From Shinella sp. WSJ-2 (GTDB lineage: Bacteria; Pseudomonadota; Alphaproteobacteria; Rhizobiales; Rhizobiaceae): a DNA stretch of 64,000 bases. Under the pieces are notes generated by a model. It made no database searches. It was not told the origin of the DNA and saw only the letters and a list, made by a program, of their open reading frames with translations. Shown here in pieces: positions 14,567 through 54,128 of the stretch (positions within the stretch are counted from its first letter, which is position 1; each line of letters opens with the position of its first letter). The position numbers and the translations under genes are program-made. Location of the stretch: NCBI RefSeq assembly GCF_003432075.1, contig NZ_QWBU01000009.1, positions 62,001-126,000 on the forward strand. The letters are read 5' to 3'.

Positions 14567-15036
14567 CTAATTGAGCGCGCAATTCCCATGCTGGCATCCG
14601 ACGCTACGGCAGAGCCTCCTTTGGGATCGGCAAGCAGGTCGGACAGCGTCGTCCCGTCAAGAATTTCATCAGAGGCGGCGGCGACTTTCGCAAAGACCCG
14701 CCGCACCGCGCAGAGCGCCCGGTCGCGGCAATCGGTGCAGGGGCGATTTCCGCCGCGCGACAGGCAGCCGAGCGGCACAAACGGCCCCTCCATCAGGCGC
14801 AGCACATCGCCAAAGACGATTTCCTCCGGGCTGCGCAGCAGGAGATAGCCGCCGTGTTTGCCGCGACGGCTGGCGACGAAGCCCGCCCGCTTCAGGTCCA
14901 GCAGGATCTGCTCCAGGAATTTCTTCGGGATCGTCTCCCGCGCAGCAATCGCGGCGATGCGCATCGTCTCACCCGGCGCGATACGCGCCAGCGCAAGAAG
15001 CGCCCGCAGGGCATATTTGGATTTCTGCGAGATCAT
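14551..15036 (-). CDS. Rrf2-family iron-sulfur-type transcriptional regulator (first paralogue)
   Basis: 161 residues: an N-terminal winged helix (KYALRALLALARIAPGE, IPKKFLEQILLDLKRAGFV, GKHGGYLL) and a cysteine cluster Cys91-x8-Cys100-x2-Cys103-x5-Cys109. The cluster suggests an Fe-S or thiol sensor like IscR, RirA or NsrR, though the spacing differs. The ATG overlaps the TGA of the upstream flavoprotein gene (15033-15036). Being encoded among sulfur genes with shared dyads, it is a prime candidate to bind those dyads and sense cysteine or Fe-S status. The paralogue at 17932 has identical cysteine spacing. Confidence 0.87.
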   Translation of the reverse strand: MISQKSKYALRALLALARIAPGETMRIAAIAARETIPKKFLEQILLDLKRAGFVASRRGKHGGYLLLRSPEEIVFGDVLRLMEGPFVPLGCLSRGGNRPCTDCRDRALCAVRRVFAKVAAASDEILDGTTLSDLLADPKGGSAVASDASMGIARSISLVKM

Positions 15037-16373
15037 GACTTGGCGATCTCGGTGGCCATGCGTCCGGCGACCGAACGAGCCTGCACACGGATATCGGGCA
15101 CGGCGGTAATCTCAAAATGGCGCCCGGCGGTGAGCGGGCCCATGGCATAAAGCTTTCCTTCGGACGCGGGCACCGCGGAATGGTCATCGACCGCGATGCC
15201 GAGGCCGATTGGGTGGGGCGCGACGATCCCTTCGGCGGCAAGGCTGGACAAAAGCGGCGAGGCCGAGACCGTACATCGCTCGAAACCGGTGCAATTGACC
15301 GCCATGGCCACCGACAACGGTCGACCTTGAACGGAGGCGATTACGCCGTCATCCTGCCCATGCAGCGCCTGCAACCGGCCGCGTCGCACGACGAGCCGCC
15401 CCGTCTCACGCAACGCCGCGATTTCGGCGGCGACGGCGGGTGCCATGCGGTGGCGGTGGACATTCCAGAACGGTGCGGCGTGGCGCAGGAACCGGCGCTG
15501 CTGCTCCGACGTCCAGCCTTTCCAGAGGTCCTGCGTCACGGGGCGAAGGCCATCCATGACGGCGCGCCAGTCCGGCGTGGCGGTCGCAGCCGCACGAAGC
15601 TTCGCGAGCATGGCGCTGAGTTCAGCGCTTTCAGGCAGAAGCAACGGCGCGATCGGTTCGGCCCGGTGCGCGAGATGCGCTTGCGGCAGCAGGCCGTGAC
15701 GGGAGACGGCATGCATCGTGCCACGAAAACCGGTCCGCGCGAGGCGAAGACACTGATCGACCATGGTGAGGCCAGTGCCGACGAAGAGCACATCGCCGTC
15801 GTCGGGAAGGCGGCTCCACCACGCATCGTCCCAAGGGTTCTGCACGACGAATGGGCGAACCTCCTCGGATATCGCCTCGTCCGGCAAGGGTAGGCGGCCG
15901 GTGCCGGCACCGGTACAGAGCGCGGAAACGCGCGCCGCAAGCATGGAACCACCGGAGAGATGGAAGAGCAGCCCGCCATCGGCCAGTGCCTCGGCGCGCT
16001 GGGCTTCGGCATCGACGAGCGTGAGCGCGGCGCGATTGGCGGTGCGCTTCAGCGCGGCATCGAGGCAATCCTCGATGTAGTCGCCATAGAGGCGCCGGGG
16101 CGCGAAATCGCCGGCCGTTGCGGCATGGCCATTTTCTGCAAGCCATTGCGTGAAGTGGTCGGGCCGGTCGGCAAACAGGCTCATACGGCCGGCGGGTACG
16201 TTGAGGCGGTGGCAATCAACCGTCGTCGCATAGGCGATGCCCCTGCCCTGCTCTTCACGCGCGCCGACGAGGCTGATTCGTGCCGTCGGCGGTGCCAGTT
16301 CAACGAGATTGAGCGCCAGCGCCACGGCCGAAAAACCCGAACCGATGACCGCCACATCCGTCTCTTGTCTCAT
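15033..16373 (-). CDS. FAD/NAD(P)-binding oxidoreductase (NAD_binding_9/YdhS-like), first in operon
   Basis: 446 residues with FAD-binding VAVIGSGFSAVALALNL at the N-terminus, a GIAYAT-HRLNVPAGRMSLFAD segment typical of the YdhS/hydroxyacyl-type family, and a second motif DVLFVGTGLTMVDQCL. ATG 16373 follows GGGAGGAAAT; the longer frame from 16415 would run through the operator. It is translationally coupled to the rrf2 gene downstream. The partner at 13173 has the same fold but clearly diverged sequence. The reaction is not known; a role in organosulfur oxidation or reduction is inferred from the neighbours. Confidence 0.8.
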   Translation of the reverse strand: MRQETDVAVIGSGFSAVALALNLVELAPPTARISLVGAREEQGRGIAYATTVDCHRLNVPAGRMSLFADRPDHFTQWLAENGHAATAGDFAPRRLYGDYIEDCLDAALKRTANRAALTLVDAEAQRAEALADGGLLFHLSGGSMLAARVSALCTGAGTGRLPLPDEAISEEVRPFVVQNPWDDAWWSRLPDDGDVLFVGTGLTMVDQCLRLARTGFRGTMHAVSRHGLLPQAHLAHRAEPIAPLLLPESAELSAMLAKLRAAATATPDWRAVMDGLRPVTQDLWKGWTSEQQRRFLRHAAPFWNVHRHRMAPAVAAEIAALRETGRLVVRRGRLQALHGQDDGVIASVQGRPLSVAMAVNCTGFERCTVSASPLLSSLAAEGIVAPHPIGLGIAVDDHSAVPASEGKLYAMGPLTAGRHFEITAVPDIRVQARSVAGRMATEIAKS

Positions 16374-16418
16374 TTTATTTCCTCCCGAAGGATGACGCGA
16401 GCAATCTAGCGGCATTTA

Positions 16419-16435: not shown

Positions 16436-16706
16436 CTATTAATCGGCATCCCCAGATCGATAAAATGGCCGGCGCGCCGCTTGGTTCCAGTCCCGCCCAA
16501 CCGGAGTGATCCACCAGCTTGAACGGGACGGAGCCGATGGTATTCTGCGTTTGCACCAACGTCGTGATACGGGATCGAGGAACCAGATGGCGGGTTTTCC
16601 ATTCTGTCTCTCGCTCTTGAGACCGCCCGGCTTTGTGCGACGGCGATGTAACGCCGTGCAATGGGGTCCCGGTCTGCCCGGCTTTGCCCCGGGCGCCAAA
16701 GCGATC

Positions 16707-16787: not shown

Positions 16788-17888
16788 ATGGGTACGATTT
16801 CATCCGCGCTTGACCGACCGGTGCGCACCGCCGCCGTGATCGGCACCGAAGACGAAGCGATACATGTGGCCCGCACGGTTGCGGGCCTGTTCGATCTTTC
16901 CAGCCCGGCGGCAAGCGGCACGGCGGAAACACGCCTCGATCTGCTCTCCCGCTCCGGCCTGTTCGGCATTTCCGTTCCCACCGAACAGGGCGGCATAGAT
17001 GTTTCCAATACCGTTCTGGTCGCCGTCTGCGCGGAGGCCGCGTCGCATTCGGCCACCCTCGGCGAGATTCTCGCGGCGCATTTTACCGCGCTCGAACATA
17101 TCCGCAGCTTCGGCACCGAGGGCCAGCGCAACACGATCTTTGCCGCGGCCCGTTCCGGCGCCCGGCTTGCGCGGGCCGTCGGCCGGCGGGGCGGCGCCGA
17201 GCTGGAGGCACTGCCGCTCGCCATTGTCGGCCTTGCGCACCGCCTCAGCGGCGAGGCGCTATCGACGCCCTGCACGCGCCATGCGGACTGGATGCTGATC
17301 CCCGTGCTCGGCGATGGCGGCAAGACCGCCGGCCTGCTATTGCCAACCCGCATCGACGGCCTGCGCTACGCGGCCAACAGCTGCGAGCCCGCACCCGGCG
17401 GCGTGCAGCCCGCCGAGCCCGTCCTGTTCAAGGACGTGCTCATCGATGGCGACGTGCTGCTGCATGCCGCCGGCGAGGCGCCACAGCCACCCGTGCCGCA
17501 CGCGCTCGATCTGCTGCTGGAGGCGAGCCGCCATCTGGGTGCCGGCCGCCGCGCGCTGCGGCAGGTTCTGGAGGGAGCAACGGCACCGGCCACCATAGGC
17601 CTCCTCTCCGCCCGCCTTGCCGCGGCGGAGGCCATGGCCGAGGAGGCGGGGCGCGCCATCGACGCCGCGCAGATCGGCCTTGCCGGACAGCACCGGACAA
17701 ACGCCTTCCTCGCCGCAACGGCCGCCCTCACGGTGGCACAGGAAGCGGCGAGCGCAATACGGCAGGCAGATTCGGTGGGGATGGAGAAAGCGGAGCAAAC
17801 CTTGTCGGCCGCGTCACGGGCCGCGCTGGAACAAAGCGGCCGCCTGCTGATCGAGATGCACCGGCATGCGCCGGAGGCCGAAACCTGA
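16788..17888 (+). CDS. Acyl-CoA-dehydrogenase-fold flavoprotein, SfnB/DszC-like
   Basis: 366 residues with an N-terminal segment typical of the SfnB/DszC branch (LLSRSGLFGISVPTEQGGIDVSNTVLVAVCAEAASHSATLGEI), a central beta region and a helical C-terminus (LLEASRHLGAGRRAL). Members are FMNH2- or FAD-dependent enzymes used to cleave sulfone, sulfonate or thiophene sulfur. It is shorter and more diverged in the middle than typical homologues of about 390-410 residues, and substrate residues cannot be judged by eye. ATG 16788 follows GCAAGGAGCTGACGCC. It is monocistronic, with the Rrf2-type site D upstream, inside the sulfur island. Confidence 0.65.
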   Translation: MGTISSALDRPVRTAAVIGTEDEAIHVARTVAGLFDLSSPAASGTAETRLDLLSRSGLFGISVPTEQGGIDVSNTVLVAVCAEAASHSATLGEILAAHFTALEHIRSFGTEGQRNTIFAAARSGARLARAVGRRGGAELEALPLAIVGLAHRLSGEALSTPCTRHADWMLIPVLGDGGKTAGLLLPTRIDGLRYAANSCEPAPGGVQPAEPVLFKDVLIDGDVLLHAAGEAPQPPVPHALDLLLEASRHLGAGRRALRQVLEGATAPATIGLLSARLAAAEAMAEEAGRAIDAAQIGLAGQHRTNAFLAATAALTVAQEAASAIRQADSVGMEKAEQTLSAASRAALEQSGRLLIEMHRHAPEAET

Positions 17889-44877: not shown

Positions 44878-45948
44878 CTAAGCCGGCGGCTGCGCATCGC
44901 AAGCCGCCGGATTTTTTTTGCCCGCACGGCGGCGGGCATTGCGGCGGTTTTCGAGGAAACGCAGAAGGCGCTCCTCCTCCGCGCGCAGGCCCTTGATGGC
45001 GAGCGGCGGGCGGCGCATCGCACGCTGCAGCGTTTCCGGCGTCTCAGCGAGCGCGATAACATCGGGATGGATGTAGCTCGACCGGGCGATGGCCGGCGTA
45101 TTGTGTAGCGCCTCGGAGGCGGCGGTTGCCATGCCCTTGATTGTCGGCCGCCCCCCGTCTTCGATGGCTTGGCGGGCCATCGCGAAGGCCGCGAGACTTC
45201 CCGCCCAGGTGCGAAACGTCTTGGCCGAGACCGCGATGCCGGCGATCTGGGCGAGATATCCGTTGAGCCGGCCGGAATCGATCGGGCGCACCAAGTTCGT
45301 CTCATCCTTCCAGACGAAGAGCTGCCGGCCCGGCAGATCGGCGCTGTCTTCCAGGATGCGCTGCAGGCGCGGATGTTTCAGCGTGCGCTGCACGCGTTTA
45401 CCGCCCTTGGCTGTGAAGCGCAATTCGATGCGGCCGTCAGCCAGCCTGACATGGCGCTTCAACAGCGTCGTCGCGCCATAGGTCTTGTTTTCCTCCGCAT
45501 AAGCGCGGTTGCCGACGCGCAGCTGCGCCTCATCGAGCAGCACGGTGATCGCCGCCAGCATCGTATCGACCCTGCCCGGCGCGCCATCCAGATCACGCCG
45601 GACCGCGCGTCGGATTTTCGGCAGCGCCCGGCCGAAGGCGATGAGCTGGCCGAACTTGTCGCCGCTCTTCAACGCCTGCCAGTCGGCATGATAGCGGTAC
45701 TGCTTTCGCCCGCGCGCATCGTAACCGGTTGCCTGGAGGTGACCATTGTCCTGAATGCAGATCCAGACGTTCTGATAAGCTGGCGGCAGGCCGAGCGCCG
45801 AGATGCGCGCCTTCAGCGCCGCATCTCGTACAAGGGCACCATCCGGCAGACGGTAACAAAAGCTGCGGCCTGCACGCTGACGCCGGATTCCGGGCTCGCT
45901 GTCAGAGACATAGACGAGACCGGCTTGCGAAAGCGTGTCCGGCACCAT
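44878..45948 (-). CDS. Type IB DNA topoisomerase (poxvirus-like)
   Basis: 356 residues. Catalytic residues are visible: RVGN (Arg144), Lys in FTAKGGK, KTFRTW (Arg246), and nucleophile Tyr292 in IARSSYIHP. It relaxes supercoils through a 3'-phosphotyrosine. Bacterial TopIB genes are often stress linked. It begins 9 bp after glgX and probably shares the EcfG-like promoter at 48172; the terminal codons contain the PfpI terminator. Confidence 0.92.
   Translation of the reverse strand: MVPDTLSQAGLVYVSDSEPGIRRQRAGRSFCYRLPDGALVRDAALKARISALGLPPAYQNVWICIQDNGHLQATGYDARGRKQYRYHADWQALKSGDKFGQLIAFGRALPKIRRAVRRDLDGAPGRVDTMLAAITVLLDEAQLRVGNRAYAEENKTYGATTLLKRHVRLADGRIELRFTAKGGKRVQRTLKHPRLQRILEDSADLPGRQLFVWKDETNLVRPIDSGRLNGYLAQIAGIAVSAKTFRTWAGSLAAFAMARQAIEDGGRPTIKGMATAASEALHNTPAIARSSYIHPDVIALAETPETLQRAMRRPPLAIKGLRAEEERLLRFLENRRNARRRAGKKNPAACDAQPPA
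44883..44919 (+). terminator. Terminator of the stress operon, inside the end of the topoisomerase gene
   Basis: CCGGCGGCT/AGCCGCCGG around a 10-base loop, then A and eight Ts, just after the PfpI stop on the plus strand. It also encodes the last residues of the convergent topoisomerase. Confidence 0.9.
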
Positions 45949-45957
45949 GGCACACCG

Positions 45958-48042
45958 TCAGTTCACAGGTTCGAAGACGGCGATGCTCGCGCCATAGACA
46001 GTGGCCGGGCTTTCCGCCGGGTGCTCGGCAAAGGCATCATCCGCCGCCCCGGTATCCAACACGCGCTTCCATACCGTAATGCCGTTCACCGAGGGCAACT
46101 GTACGGTGCAGTCGCCGCCGGCATTGCAGACGAGGAAGAGCTGATCCATACCCTCGCCGTTCGCCGGCTTGGAGAGGAAAAGCCCGAGCGCACGCAGATT
46201 GCTATCCGTCCAGGCGGCATCGGTCATGAAATTGCCATCCGGCATGTACCAGGCGATCTCGATCGAGCCGTCTTCCGCCGCGTCTCCCGTGAGAAAACGT
46301 TCCTGCCGCAGCGCCGGATGCGCCTTGCGGAACGCGATCGCGCCCTTGCAGAAATTCAGGAACGGATCGCCGAGCCCGCTCCAGTCCGTCCAGCCGATCT
46401 CGTTGTCCTGGCAATAGGCGTTGTTGTTGCCACCCTGGCTGTTTCCGAGTTCATCGCCGCCGAGCAGCATGGGCACGCCCTGGCTCAGCATCAGCGTCGC
46501 GATCATGTTGCGGCGCCGGCGGTCGCGGGCGGCGATGATGTCGGCGTTATCGGTCGCCCCTTCCGCGCCCAGATTGTGCGAATGGTTGTCGGAATGGCCG
46601 TCGCGATTGTCCTCGCCATTGGCCTCATTGTGCTTGCCGTCATAGGAGACGGTGTCCATGAGCGTGAAGCCGTCATGGGCGCTGATCAGGTTGACCGAGG
46701 AGGTCGCGCCGCGGTCGGAGTGGTTGAACTGCGGCGCCGAGCCGGTGAGGCGCGAGGCAAGGCCGGAAACCAGCCCGCCGTCGCCCTTCCAGAACCGGCG
46801 CACGTCGTCGCGGTACTTGTCGTTCCATTCGCGGAACGGATAGGGGAAGCCGCCGACCTGATAGCCGCCGTCGCCGACATCCCAGGGCTCGGCGATGAGC
46901 TTGACGCCTGACAGGATCGGGTCCTGCCGGATGGCGTCGAAGAAGGTGCCGTCGCGGTCGAATTCGATATGGCGCGTGCGACCGAGCGTGCTGGCCAGAT
47001 CGAAACGGAACCCGTCGACATGCATTGCGCTGACCCAGTAGCGCAGACTGTCCAGCACCATGCGCAGGACCATGGGATGGGCGATGTTGACGGTGTTGCC
47101 GGTGCCGGTCGTGTCGTAGGAATGGCGTGGATCGTCCGGCGACAGGCGATAGTAGCTGAGATTGTCGAGGCCGCGGAAGCTGAGGGTGGGACCACGCTCG
47201 GAGCCTTCGGCCGTGTGGTTGTACACCACATCCATGATGACCTCGATGCCAGCGGCATGGAAGCGCTTCACCATGGTCTTGAATTCGGTGATGGCCTTGC
47301 CGGAAAGGAAGCGCGGCTGCGGCGCGAAGAAGCCCAGCGTCTGGTAGCCCCAATAGTTGCGCAGGGCCTTTTCGAGCAGGTAGCGGTCATCCGGGAAATA
47401 CTGGATCGGCAGAAGTTCGATGGCGGAAATGCCCAGGTCGACGAGATGCTCGATGATCGCGTCGCTCGCCATGCCCATAAAGGTGCCGCGAAGCTCTTCG
47501 GGCACACCGGGATGGGTCATCGTCATGCCGCGCACATGGGCTTCATAGATGATCGTATCGGTCCAGGGGCGGCGGATGGCGGCGTCGCCCGCCCAGTCGA
47601 AATCCGGATCCTGTACCACGCCCTTTACCATGAAGGGTGCGCTGTCGCGCTCGTCGAAGGAGAGATCTTCCGCCGCATCGCCGATCTTGTAGCCATAAAG
47701 CGCATCGTCCCACTGGATTTCGCCGAGAACCTGCTTGGCATAAGGGTCGAGCAGCAGCTTGTTCGGATTGAAGCGATGACCGGCTTTCGGATCATAGGGC
47801 CCGTGCGCACGGTATCCATAGACGGTGCCCGGCTTCAGGCCGGCGATATAACCCGACCAGATGTCGCCCTCGCGCTTGGGCAAGGCCAAGCGCGCCGTCT
47901 CTTCTTTTCCGTCGGGAGAAAACAGACACAGCTCCACCTGCTCGGCATGAGCGGAAAAGACCGCGAAGTGCGTGCCGTCGCCAGTAAATTCGGCGCCAAG
48001 CTCCGGCTTGATGAAGTCGAGTTCGGAAAAAGAATAGCTCAT
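45958..48042 (-). CDS. glgX: Glycogen debranching enzyme (isoamylase-type, GH13)
   Basis: 694 residues: an N-terminal CBM48 domain (GTHFAVFSAHAEQVELCLF), GH13 barrel motifs VVYNHTAEG, the nucleophile region VDGFRFDLAST, AEPWD (acid) and SAHDGFTLMDTVSYDGKHNEANGEDNRDG, which is typical of GlgX. It removes alpha-1,6 branches from phosphorylase-trimmed glycogen. ATG 48042 gives the usual start. Divergent treZ and the shared EcfG-like promoter core suggest maltodextrin release for trehalose synthesis under stress. Topoisomerase IB follows. Confidence 0.94.
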   Translation of the reverse strand: MSYSFSELDFIKPELGAEFTGDGTHFAVFSAHAEQVELCLFSPDGKEETARLALPKREGDIWSGYIAGLKPGTVYGYRAHGPYDPKAGHRFNPNKLLLDPYAKQVLGEIQWDDALYGYKIGDAAEDLSFDERDSAPFMVKGVVQDPDFDWAGDAAIRRPWTDTIIYEAHVRGMTMTHPGVPEELRGTFMGMASDAIIEHLVDLGISAIELLPIQYFPDDRYLLEKALRNYWGYQTLGFFAPQPRFLSGKAITEFKTMVKRFHAAGIEVIMDVVYNHTAEGSERGPTLSFRGLDNLSYYRLSPDDPRHSYDTTGTGNTVNIAHPMVLRMVLDSLRYWVSAMHVDGFRFDLASTLGRTRHIEFDRDGTFFDAIRQDPILSGVKLIAEPWDVGDGGYQVGGFPYPFREWNDKYRDDVRRFWKGDGGLVSGLASRLTGSAPQFNHSDRGATSSVNLISAHDGFTLMDTVSYDGKHNEANGEDNRDGHSDNHSHNLGAEGATDNADIIAARDRRRRNMIATLMLSQGVPMLLGGDELGNSQGGNNNAYCQDNEIGWTDWSGLGDPFLNFCKGAIAFRKAHPALRQERFLTGDAAEDGSIEIAWYMPDGNFMTDAAWTDSNLRALGLFLSKPANGEGMDQLFLVCNAGGDCTVQLPSVNGITVWKRVLDTGAADDAFAEHPAESPATVYGASIAVFEPVN

Positions 48043-48171
48043 GCAATGCGTCCCCTTCGAGCGAGCAAATGACCTCCCCACATAAGACTGCGACAGGCTG
48101 CAGTCTCGGCCTTCTCACGTCCAGCGGTTCTCCACCGGACCGGTTATCAGGGCGCGAAAAGACAATGATGC

Positions 48172-48196
48172 AACGCGAAAAGATGCTGATTGTTCC
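48172..48196 (-). promoter_or_regulatory. EcfG-like promoter of glgX
   Basis: GGAAC-N16-CGTT on the minus strand, an exact match to the consensus, about 130 bp before glgX. Its -35 abuts that of the treZ promoter to form GTTCCGGAAC. Confidence 0.75.
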
Positions 48197-48221
48197 GGAA
48201 CAATTTGCTGCCCGCCCGGTT
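48197..48221 (+). promoter_or_regulatory. EcfG-like promoter of treZ
   Basis: GGAAC-N16-GGTT on the plus strand, 29 bp before treZ, back to back with the glgX promoter. Confidence 0.7.
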
Positions 48222-48249
48222 CGATCCTGTCGAATGAGAGAGGCAACGA

Positions 48250-50103
48250 ATGACGGAGCCATTGATGATGCAGCGCAGTTGGGGACCGGTTTTGGAGAAG
48301 GACGGTGGCGTCACGTTTCGCCTCTGGGCACCGGCCGAAGCGGCAGTCACACTTCTGGTCGAAGATCGGGAAATCTCCATGCGGCGAACCGAAGATGGCT
48401 GGCACAGCCGCCGGGCCGAGGCAAAGGCCGGCGACCGCTATGCCTTCCGCCTTGACGATGGCACCACGATACCGGACCCGGCCACGCACGCCCAGCTGGA
48501 CGATGTGGACGGCCTGTCGCTCATCGTCGATCATGGTGCCTTTGTCTGGCAACATCCCCACTGGACGGGGCGTCCCTGGGCGGAGACCGTTCTCTACGAA
48601 CTGCATATCGGCACCTTCACGCCGGAAGGTACCTTTCGGGCCGCGATCGACCGCCTGCCGCATCTGCGCGCGCTGGGCATCACCGCCGTCGAGCTCATGC
48701 CCGTTGCCCATTTCGCCGGCCGGCGCGGTTGGGGTTACGATGGTGTGCTGCTCCATGCCCCGCATCCGGCCTATGGAACGCCCGACGAATTGAAGGCCTT
48801 TGTCGACGCGGCCCATGGACAGGGCATGATGGTGCTGCTCGACGTCGTCTACAATCACTTCGGCCCGGTCGGGAACATGCTGCCACGCATCGCGCCTGAC
48901 TTCTTCCATCCCGAGCGGCACACGCCCTGGGGTGCGGCCATCGCCTTCGACGAACCGGCCGTTCGGCGCTACTTCATCGAGAATGCTCTGCAATGGGTCG
49001 TCGACTACCGCTTCGACGGGCTGCGGCTCGATGCGACCGAGCAGATAGAGGACACGAGCGAGACGCATCTTTTGATCGAGCTTGCGGAAACCGTGCGGGC
49101 AGCGGTCCCAAACCGGCACATTCACCTTGCCGTGGAAGACCAGCACAGCCGCAAGAGCCTGCTGAACCGCGACGGCGGCATCGTCAGGCACTACACCGCC
49201 GGCTGGAATGATGAATTCCACCATGCCCTGCATGTCGTCGCGACCGGTGAGACGGGCGGCTATTACGAAAACTTCCTCGACGATACGATCGGCACGCTTC
49301 GCGAGGCCACAGCCAAGGGCTTCGTGCATGCGGACCGCGCCAAGGATCGCGTCGGTCCGGCACCGCAGGATCCGCTTCCGCCCGACGTCAACATCAACTT
49401 CCTGCAGAACCACGACCAGATCGGCAACCGTGCTTTCGGCGACCGGTTGGGAAATCAAACCGGTCCCGACCTGCTCAAGGTCTTGACGGCGCTGCTGATG
49501 CTGTCCCCGCCAGTGCCGCTCGTGTTCATGGGCGAGGAATATGGCGAGGAGCAGCCCTTCCAGTTCTTTGCGGACTTCGAGGGAGAGCTTGCCCATGCGA
49601 CAAAAGAAGGTCGCGAGGCGGAAGCCGAAAAATTCGGTGGCATGCCGGACGGCAAGACCATGGCGGATCTGCCCGATCCGCTCTCGGAAGAAACCTTTAA
49701 GCGCTCGAAGCTTGACTGGTCGCGCGCCGTAACGCCAGAAGGTCGACAGCGGATGGAGTTTCTCCGCGAGCTGATCGATTTGCGCCAACGGTATATCGCG
49801 CCGCTGCTGAAGACAGGGACGGTCGAACCGCGTATCCTGCCTGCAGACGAGGGCATTGTCGCCATCGACTGGCGCTCGCCCTTCGGAACCCTCCTTCTTC
49901 GTGCCAATCTGCTGGAAGAGAACGTGACACCCTCCACTTTGCCCGGCGAAACGGTCTACAGCTTTTCGCCGGGCGCCAAGACCGGACCGTGGATATCCGT
50001 CGCCTTCGACAGGACACAGCGGATTTCGGAACCAAAACTGCCTTCGGCTGTTCCTACGGAGATGGATTTCGAGAGGTCCGCATGCATATCGGCGACATCA
50101 TGA
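48250..50103 (+). CDS. treZ: Malto-oligosyltrehalose trehalohydrolase
   Basis: 617 residues: an N-terminal carbohydrate-binding region (GGVTFRLWAPAEAAVTLLV) then GH13 motifs VLYELHIGTFTPEGTF, GYDGVLLHAPHPAYG, VVYNHFGPVGN, nucleophile in FDGLRLDATEQI, NHDQIGNRAFGDRL and FMGEEYGEEQPFQFF. It releases trehalose from maltooligosyl-trehalose made by TreY. No treY is in the window, so the partner must be elsewhere or the gene context has been split. ATG 48250 follows GAGAGAGGCAACG. Its end overlaps the CBS gene by 22 bp. Confidence 0.94.
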   Translation: MTEPLMMQRSWGPVLEKDGGVTFRLWAPAEAAVTLLVEDREISMRRTEDGWHSRRAEAKAGDRYAFRLDDGTTIPDPATHAQLDDVDGLSLIVDHGAFVWQHPHWTGRPWAETVLYELHIGTFTPEGTFRAAIDRLPHLRALGITAVELMPVAHFAGRRGWGYDGVLLHAPHPAYGTPDELKAFVDAAHGQGMMVLLDVVYNHFGPVGNMLPRIAPDFFHPERHTPWGAAIAFDEPAVRRYFIENALQWVVDYRFDGLRLDATEQIEDTSETHLLIELAETVRAAVPNRHIHLAVEDQHSRKSLLNRDGGIVRHYTAGWNDEFHHALHVVATGETGGYYENFLDDTIGTLREATAKGFVHADRAKDRVGPAPQDPLPPDVNINFLQNHDQIGNRAFGDRLGNQTGPDLLKVLTALLMLSPPVPLVFMGEEYGEEQPFQFFADFEGELAHATKEGREAEAEKFGGMPDGKTMADLPDPLSEETFKRSKLDWSRAVTPEGRQRMEFLRELIDLRQRYIAPLLKTGTVEPRILPADEGIVAIDWRSPFGTLLLRANLLEENVTPSTLPGETVYSFSPGAKTGPWISVAFDRTQRISEPKLPSAVPTEMDFERSACISATS

Positions 50104-53572: not shown

Positions 53573-54067
53573 TTATTCATCGACATCGCTGGGAATATGG
53601 CTGTCGACGCCGCGCGTCATCAGGCGTTCCGCCCGAACGCCGCGCACGCCCTTGACGCGCCGCACGACACCGATGAGATGGCGGCGGTCTTCGTCGCTAT
53701 CAACGGAACCATCGAGATCGGCGATACCGCCGCGGATGGCGATCTCGATCAGATCAAGATCGAAGCGACCGTCTTCTTCAAGGCTCAGTGCGATGCGCTC
53801 TTCCAGATCGTCGTCGGCAATCGTGTCGGCCTCGTCGTCGGAGAATGGCAGCGGTGCACCATCGACATCCCGCAGTTCGGGATCGCCGGCAACTTCCACG
53901 CCCTTGTTGTCCAGCTGCTCGAGATTAGCGCCCGCAGTGCCGTAGGGCGCATTCCTGGCGGCCTTGCGATCACCATCGCTGTCCGCATAGGGCCAGCCGT
54001 CGCGAATATCGCGCTGTTCGTAATCGCGGAAATCGTCCTCGCGGGAGGCTTGTTTGCGGTCGCCCAT
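53573..54067 (-). CDS. BON-domain protein
   Basis: 164 residues: an acidic, disordered N-terminal 75 residues (DDFRDYEQRDIRDGWPYADSD) and a BON domain from about 85 (DDDLEERIALSLEEDGRFDLDLIEIAIRGGIADLDGSVDSDEDRRHLIGVVRRVKGVRGVRAERL). BON domains bind membranes or ligands; this one lacks a signal peptide. An EcfG-like promoter lies 36-61 bp upstream. Confidence 0.85.
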   Translation of the reverse strand: MGDRKQASREDDFRDYEQRDIRDGWPYADSDGDRKAARNAPYGTAGANLEQLDNKGVEVAGDPELRDVDGAPLPFSDDEADTIADDDLEERIALSLEEDGRFDLDLIEIAIRGGIADLDGSVDSDEDRRHLIGVVRRVKGVRGVRAERLMTRGVDSHIPSDVDE

Positions 54068-54102: not shown

Positions 54103-54128
54103 AACTGCGCAGGGCAGCGCTTTGTTCC
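54103..54128 (-). promoter_or_regulatory. EcfG-like promoter of the BON gene
   Basis: GGAAC-N17-AGTT reading toward 54067, just after the phosphatase gene. Confidence 0.6.

Follow-up and report, generated by a model that had tools for sequence, protein, structure and literature searches.

Back-to-back EcfG-like promoters with touching −35 elements between glgX and treZ in Shinella

Analysis of a 64,000-nucleotide stretch of the Shinella sp. WSJ-2 genome (hereafter the window) identified two EcfG-like promoters that lie back to back between the divergent genes glgX and treZ, with their −35 elements in direct contact. In all likelihood these are two separate EcfG (ECF15) promoters, which, judging from sequence comparison, would induce glgX and treZ jointly under stress. 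The glgX promoter is designated R and the treZ promoter F; positions are those of the window.

44878 to 45948, − strand: DNA topoisomerase IB gene (PF01028 and PF21338), 9 bp behind glgX
45958 to 48042, − strand: glgX, glycogen debranching enzyme, 694 aa (TIGR02100, 1025 bits; cut-off 641)
48163 to 48165, − strand: predicted glgX transcription start, same offsets as for treZ below; 5′ leader of about 121–123 nt
48172 to 48175, − strand: −10 CGTT of R, N16 from the R −35
48189 to 48204: perfect 16-bp palindrome ATTGTTCCGGAACAAT, both −35 elements plus three bases past each
48192 to 48196, − strand: −35 GGAAC of R, reading GTTCC on the + strand
48197 to 48201, + strand: −35 GGAAC of F, abutting the R −35
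48218 to 48221, + strand: −10 GGTT of F, N16 from the F −35
48228 to 48230, + strand: predicted treZ transcription start, 7–9 nt past the −10; 5′ leader of about 20–22 nt
48250 to 50103, + strand: treZ, malto-oligosyltrehalose trehalohydrolase, 617 aa (TIGR02402, 669 bits; cut-off 539)

R reads GGAAC-N16-CGTT from 48196 to 48172 on the − strand and F reads GGAAC-N16-GGTT from 48197 to 48221 on the + strand, with a gap of 0 bp, inside the intergenic region of 48043 to 48249. The original prediction had placed two EcfG-like promoters here, with adjacent and opposite −35 elements and −10 elements at N16 on both sides; its coordinates and letters were correct, and the arrangement is conserved in relatives. 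Compared with the EcfG motif (GGAAC and CGTT separated by N16-17, or a close variant), R is an exact match, and F differs by its GGTT, which lacks the consensus C of CGTT. From the sequence, glgX starts with the ATG at 48042, with AAGGGG upstream, and the topoisomerase IB gene is probably carried on the glgX transcript. The two predicted transcription starts lie 63–67 bp apart; the offsets used to place them were taken from three 5′-RACE rows of S. meliloti, not Shinella (PMC6180224).

The five best TreZ matches were from Shinella (Shinella curvata at 74%), and a search of 21 Shinella genomes identified treZ of this type in 17, with a divergent glgX in 16. Conservation of the core in relatives with divergent glgX and treZ had been proposed as a check, and the comparison bore it out: the −35 elements touch in 15 of the 16 loci and are 1 bp apart in the other. 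Both GGAAC elements were invariant in all 16 loci. The F −10 was GGTT throughout, with an F spacer of N17 in L096 and L098, and the R −10 was CGTT in 15/16 loci and CATT in L091, where the gap is 0 bp. L001, L002, L003 and L005 carry promoter pairs identical to those of loci already among the 16 and were not recounted. Parsimony on a tree built from glgX and treZ revealed 1 change across the 18 sites of the four elements compared with 74 across 25 spacer sites (Mann-Whitney P = 1.9e-7, all sites sharing one tree); third codon positions showed 3.5 changes per site in treZ and 2.4 in glgX. To hold the alignment in register, one spacer base was dropped from each of the N17 loci L096 and L098, as was the additional base of L099, and the seven bases directly past the −35 elements (three for R, four for F) were placed in neither group. 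The ten bases past the R −10 (48162 to 48171) were rather conserved, at 1.3 changes per site compared with 5.2 past the F −10, and perhaps act as a discriminator or early transcribed signal. On the − strand they read GCACCATCGC in most Shinella and GCATCATTGT here. Several relatives also carry a third GGAAC...GTT site on the − strand, face to face across F, where CC follows F; this site is absent in the window.

Conservation of the elements refutes the reading that GGAAC and GTT words merely happen to stand in the right place, which we regard as scarcely credible. Taken by themselves, word counts were compatible with it. The loose pattern GGAAC-N16-18-GTT occurred 7 times in the window against 3.1 expected, which is near chance (10 of 100 shuffles reached 7), and genome-wide it was rarer than its reversed control (334 versus 471). 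The 10-bp core GTTCCGGAAC has an expected count of 0.05 in the window. Genome-wide it was found at 5 places and its reversed control at 10, which shows no enrichment of the core by itself; only the glgX/treZ copy among these five has −10 elements on both sides. Against chance, however, stand elements kept over 16 genomes between variable spacers, and the outcome of a matrix scan in which 255,902 positions were scored and R ranked 1 and F ranked 2, making them the two best EcfG-like sites of the window. The matrix was built from 31 published EcfG/RpoE2 sites, comprising 25 from Sphingomonas melonis (score 10 or higher) and 6 among the listed Sinorhizobium meliloti rows, with the rpoE5 and SMa0187 rows left out; it inherits the choices behind these sets, because the motif itself had guided selection of the S. 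melonis sites in the source paper and RpoE6 also activates the S. meliloti genes. The scan also returned EcfG-like sites elsewhere in the window. Ranks 4 and 7 fell at 16488 (− strand) and 16579 (+ strand), facing apart, both with CATT, upstream of the open reading frames 15033–16415 (− strand) and 16788–17888 (+ strand), and rank 5 fell at 54128 (− strand), about 60 bp upstream of the gene for a BON-domain protein (53573–54067, − strand).

In Sinorhizobium/Ensifer the same gene pair carries the same two promoter types, with N16-17, in all 7 loci listed among the best 80 TreZ loci. The −35 elements there, however, are 21, 21, 31, 32, 32, 34 and 79 bp apart (the last, L007, measured from positions) and the F −10 is AGTT, compared with 0 bp and GGTT in the Shinella window. 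The elements are conserved ahead of the orthologous genes, as in all 16 Shinella loci with divergent genes. For this comparison a locus had to have divergent genes, high scores and a GlgX match that begins at residue 1, which excluded L015, L022 and L028 (match beginning at residue 15); the short pattern loci L084–L086 were excluded as well. Single promoters were also identified. The Shinella genomes G254 and G247, without this treZ type, have glgX with a lone GGAAC-N16-CGTT or GGAAC-N17-CGTT, and G252, whose glgX and treZ do not adjoin in the loci examined, has GGAAC-N16-CGTT at glgX and GGAAC-N16-TGTT at treZ; none of these four single promoters is directly preceded by GTTCC. The glgX genes of G219 and G262, also without this treZ, stayed outside this comparison. 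In the Rhizobium loci L015, L022 and L028, glgX faces treZ from about 400 bp away with an F-like site, and no R-like site was found with the strict pattern; L010 and L012 have an R-like site near treZ and no strong GlgX match there.

Because the halves occur separately or singly in relatives and the outer symmetry is not kept, we read the pair as two independent promoters and not as an operator. The 10-bp palindrome of the original prediction is real as a core and is kept in relatives, but the perfect palindrome in this sequence measures 16 bp, not 10; the window holds three perfect palindromes of 16 bp. A perfect palindrome of this length, with a central CG and between divergent sugar genes, could be taken for the site of a dimeric repressor, for example a LacI-like one, with the likeness to promoters secondary. 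We consider this highly improbable. The half-arm ranges from 5 to 8 across the 16 Shinella loci, leaving symmetry beyond the core unkept, and where the halves are separated (Sinorhizobium/Ensifer) or single, each retains a −10 at N16-17. The palindromic operator was rejected on these grounds, as its arms vary and its symmetry is not conserved as a unit.

The genome carries an EcfG system, with PhyR (NF006623), NepR (PF18557) and the sigma factor (NF009169) together at L121. A second NepR-like match above cut-off was observed at G000:C12:723846-723938 (L118). GGAA-type −35 elements are used by other ECF sigma factors too, and the genome has 17 sigma-70 region 2 matches, so the assignment to EcfG is probable and not established. 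In S. meliloti, RpoE2 is reportedly necessary for trehalose synthesis. It is very unlikely that R and F are real promoters of another ECF sigma factor of this genome. The 17 matches would allow it, as would the overlap of RpoE6 with RpoE2 targets in S. meliloti (PMC6180224), but in R. etli (PMC3892343) and Sphingopyxis granuli (PMC7083833) the EcfG motif is GGAAC-N16-CGTT, and papers on relatives list this pathway among the targets of EcfG or RpoE2 (PMC6599016, PMC2651895). In Sphingomonas melonis, the trehalose cluster containing glgX is listed as EcfG-dependent, and so is a topoisomerase IB gene; the site proposed there for glgX has a low score (5.11), and the gene was examined as a putative indirect target (PMC6599016). 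In S. meliloti, glgX2 is listed as dependent on RpoE2 (PMC2651895) and treZ is smb21447 (PMC4960864); glgX2 may be the copy that faces treZ in that species. In S. granuli, CATT or TGTT in place of CGTT lowered in vitro transcription, and GGTT is not among the variants named there (PMC7083833).

The original prediction had called the arrangement uncommon, which holds for the 0-bp contact and not for tight pairs in general. Of 247 family genomes, 6 have a pair in direct contact under the pattern of CGTT for R, GTT for F and N16-18; the reversed pattern used as a control matched 4 times, in 3 genomes. Three of the six are among the 4 Shinella genomes sampled, at glgX/treZ; two have the pair at Ku and one at a zinc-type dehydrogenase. 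Outside Shinella, the number of such pairs is therefore close to that of the control, but two genomes share the Ku locus and the flanking genes are divergent, which argues that these pairs are real. The Ku pair (G140 and G047, one other genus; L082 and L083, the latter from G047, near 1521) lies between Ku, assigned by PF02735 in L082, and a small gene. Like the glgX/treZ pair it consists of GGAAC-N16-CGTT and GGAAC-N17-GGTT touching at their −35 elements between divergent genes; the genes themselves differ, and its origin is presumed to be independent. The remaining pair, in another genus (L081, near 1522), lies between the zinc-type dehydrogenase and a DUF6496 gene.

Closely spaced pairs were common. 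Pairs with a gap of 0–24 bp were present somewhere in 161 of 394 family genomes (reversed control nonzero in 5, counted by eye), and divergent pairs with a gap of 0–30 bp in 19 of 21 Shinella genomes (reversed control once). A pair with a 4-bp gap is common to at least six genomes of genus g94 (G094, G169, G229, G299, G339 and G403). At phyR/nepR-ecfG, as at glgX/treZ, two EcfG-like promoters stand back to back between divergent units, here those of the general stress response. This genome has 7 bp between the two (L121:1576-1665; G000:C2); the gap is 7 bp in 20 of the 21 Shinella genomes and 6 bp in the other (L226–L245 plus this genome), and the F −10 in the Shinella loci is CATT, in contrast to GGTT at glgX/treZ. 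Among 30 family loci (L166–L195), the gap is 5–10 bp in 22, 19 bp in 3 and 98 bp in 1, and only one promoter was recognised in the other 4. These 30 are the best EcfG matches, a match being present in 50 of 61 genomes, and the gap distributions rest on these 30 family loci and the 21 Shinella loci only. Since the gap is 5–10 bp and not 0, the phyR/nepR-ecfG pairs have no palindromic core.

The prediction also held that two polymerases could not bind at once, and that glgX and treZ might be fired alternately. Simultaneous binding being impossible is plausible: the −35 elements touch and, with predicted starts 63–67 bp apart and a polymerase footprint of the usual size, the footprints should overlap. 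Exclusion is likely but not self-evident, because the centres of the two −35 elements are separated by 5 bp, roughly half a turn of the helix (171 degrees), and so present opposite faces of the DNA. An alternating switch, in which the shared −35 core admits one polymerase and the two genes are fired in turn, is quite unlikely. It might draw on the contact kept in Shinella and on bidirectional promoters of E. coli, where polymerases compete when one direction is strongly active; at basal activity, though, no competition was observed at five such promoters (PMC12825309). The kept contact is weak evidence, with a single insertion site and one 1-bp insertion in 16 loci. One sigma factor would drive both promoters, no second input was seen, glgX and treZ belong to one pathway, and in the listed Sinorhizobium/Ensifer loci the same promoters stand well apart. 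In addition, treY, on another contig and not adjoining treZ (G000:C24:312600-315182; L160, L164), has its own GGAAC-N16-CGTT, beginning 68 bp ahead of the TreY match. Alternate firing is thus unsupported.

Competition itself is a separate matter. As it was seen in E. coli only with one direction strongly active, competition at glgX/treZ under full stress is possible (PMC12825309), although those promoters differ in geometry from this pair. The bidirectional promoters of E. coli and Salmonella described by Warman and Grainger likewise fire divergently from overlapping elements, with possible competition (PMC12825309, PMC10268837). In these, however, the −10 elements overlap and starts are 7–25 bp apart, mostly 18 (PMC10268837), whereas at glgX/treZ the −35 elements touch, the −10 elements are not shared and the predicted starts are much further apart; the pair was not assigned to that class. 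A bolder proposal would treat the touching −35 elements as one symmetric EcfG docking site that serves one direction at a time, with competition setting the glgX:treZ ratio and its noise under full stress, the contact kept by selection in Shinella, and the same design arising separately at Ku and at further stress loci in related genera. We consider this proposal unlikely. Selection for the 0-bp contact is not claimed; abutting elements offer a single insertion site, and for that reason drift could also give the distribution observed.

Joint induction of the whole glycogen-to-trehalose route is the simplest reading, and would proceed as follows. Stress would act through PhyR to release EcfG from NepR. 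From R, the EcfG holoenzyme would then read leftward through glgX and probably the topoisomerase IB gene, and from F it would read rightward through treZ. Debranching of glycogen and formation of trehalose would increase in parallel, and treY, elsewhere in the genome, would be switched on by an EcfG-like promoter of its own. Two holoenzymes may compete at the overlapping −35 region, and single initiations may exclude each other without alternation at the level of the programme.

The literature covered, which took in few subscription papers, contained no account of EcfG promoters standing back to back at glgX/treZ; an earlier account may therefore exist. The glgX/treZ pair is a conserved EcfG-type pair in an unusually tight setting and is ordinary in kind; EcfG promoters and closely spaced divergent pairs of such promoters are both of known kinds, and as a regulatory discovery the finding is modest. 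Back-to-back EcfG-like −35 elements provide a natural series of gaps (0, 1, 6–7, 21, 31–34 and 79 bp) that suits the measurement of polymerase competition at ECF promoters. For Shinella, the arrangement would link both the breakdown of glycogen and the synthesis of trehalose with the general stress response.
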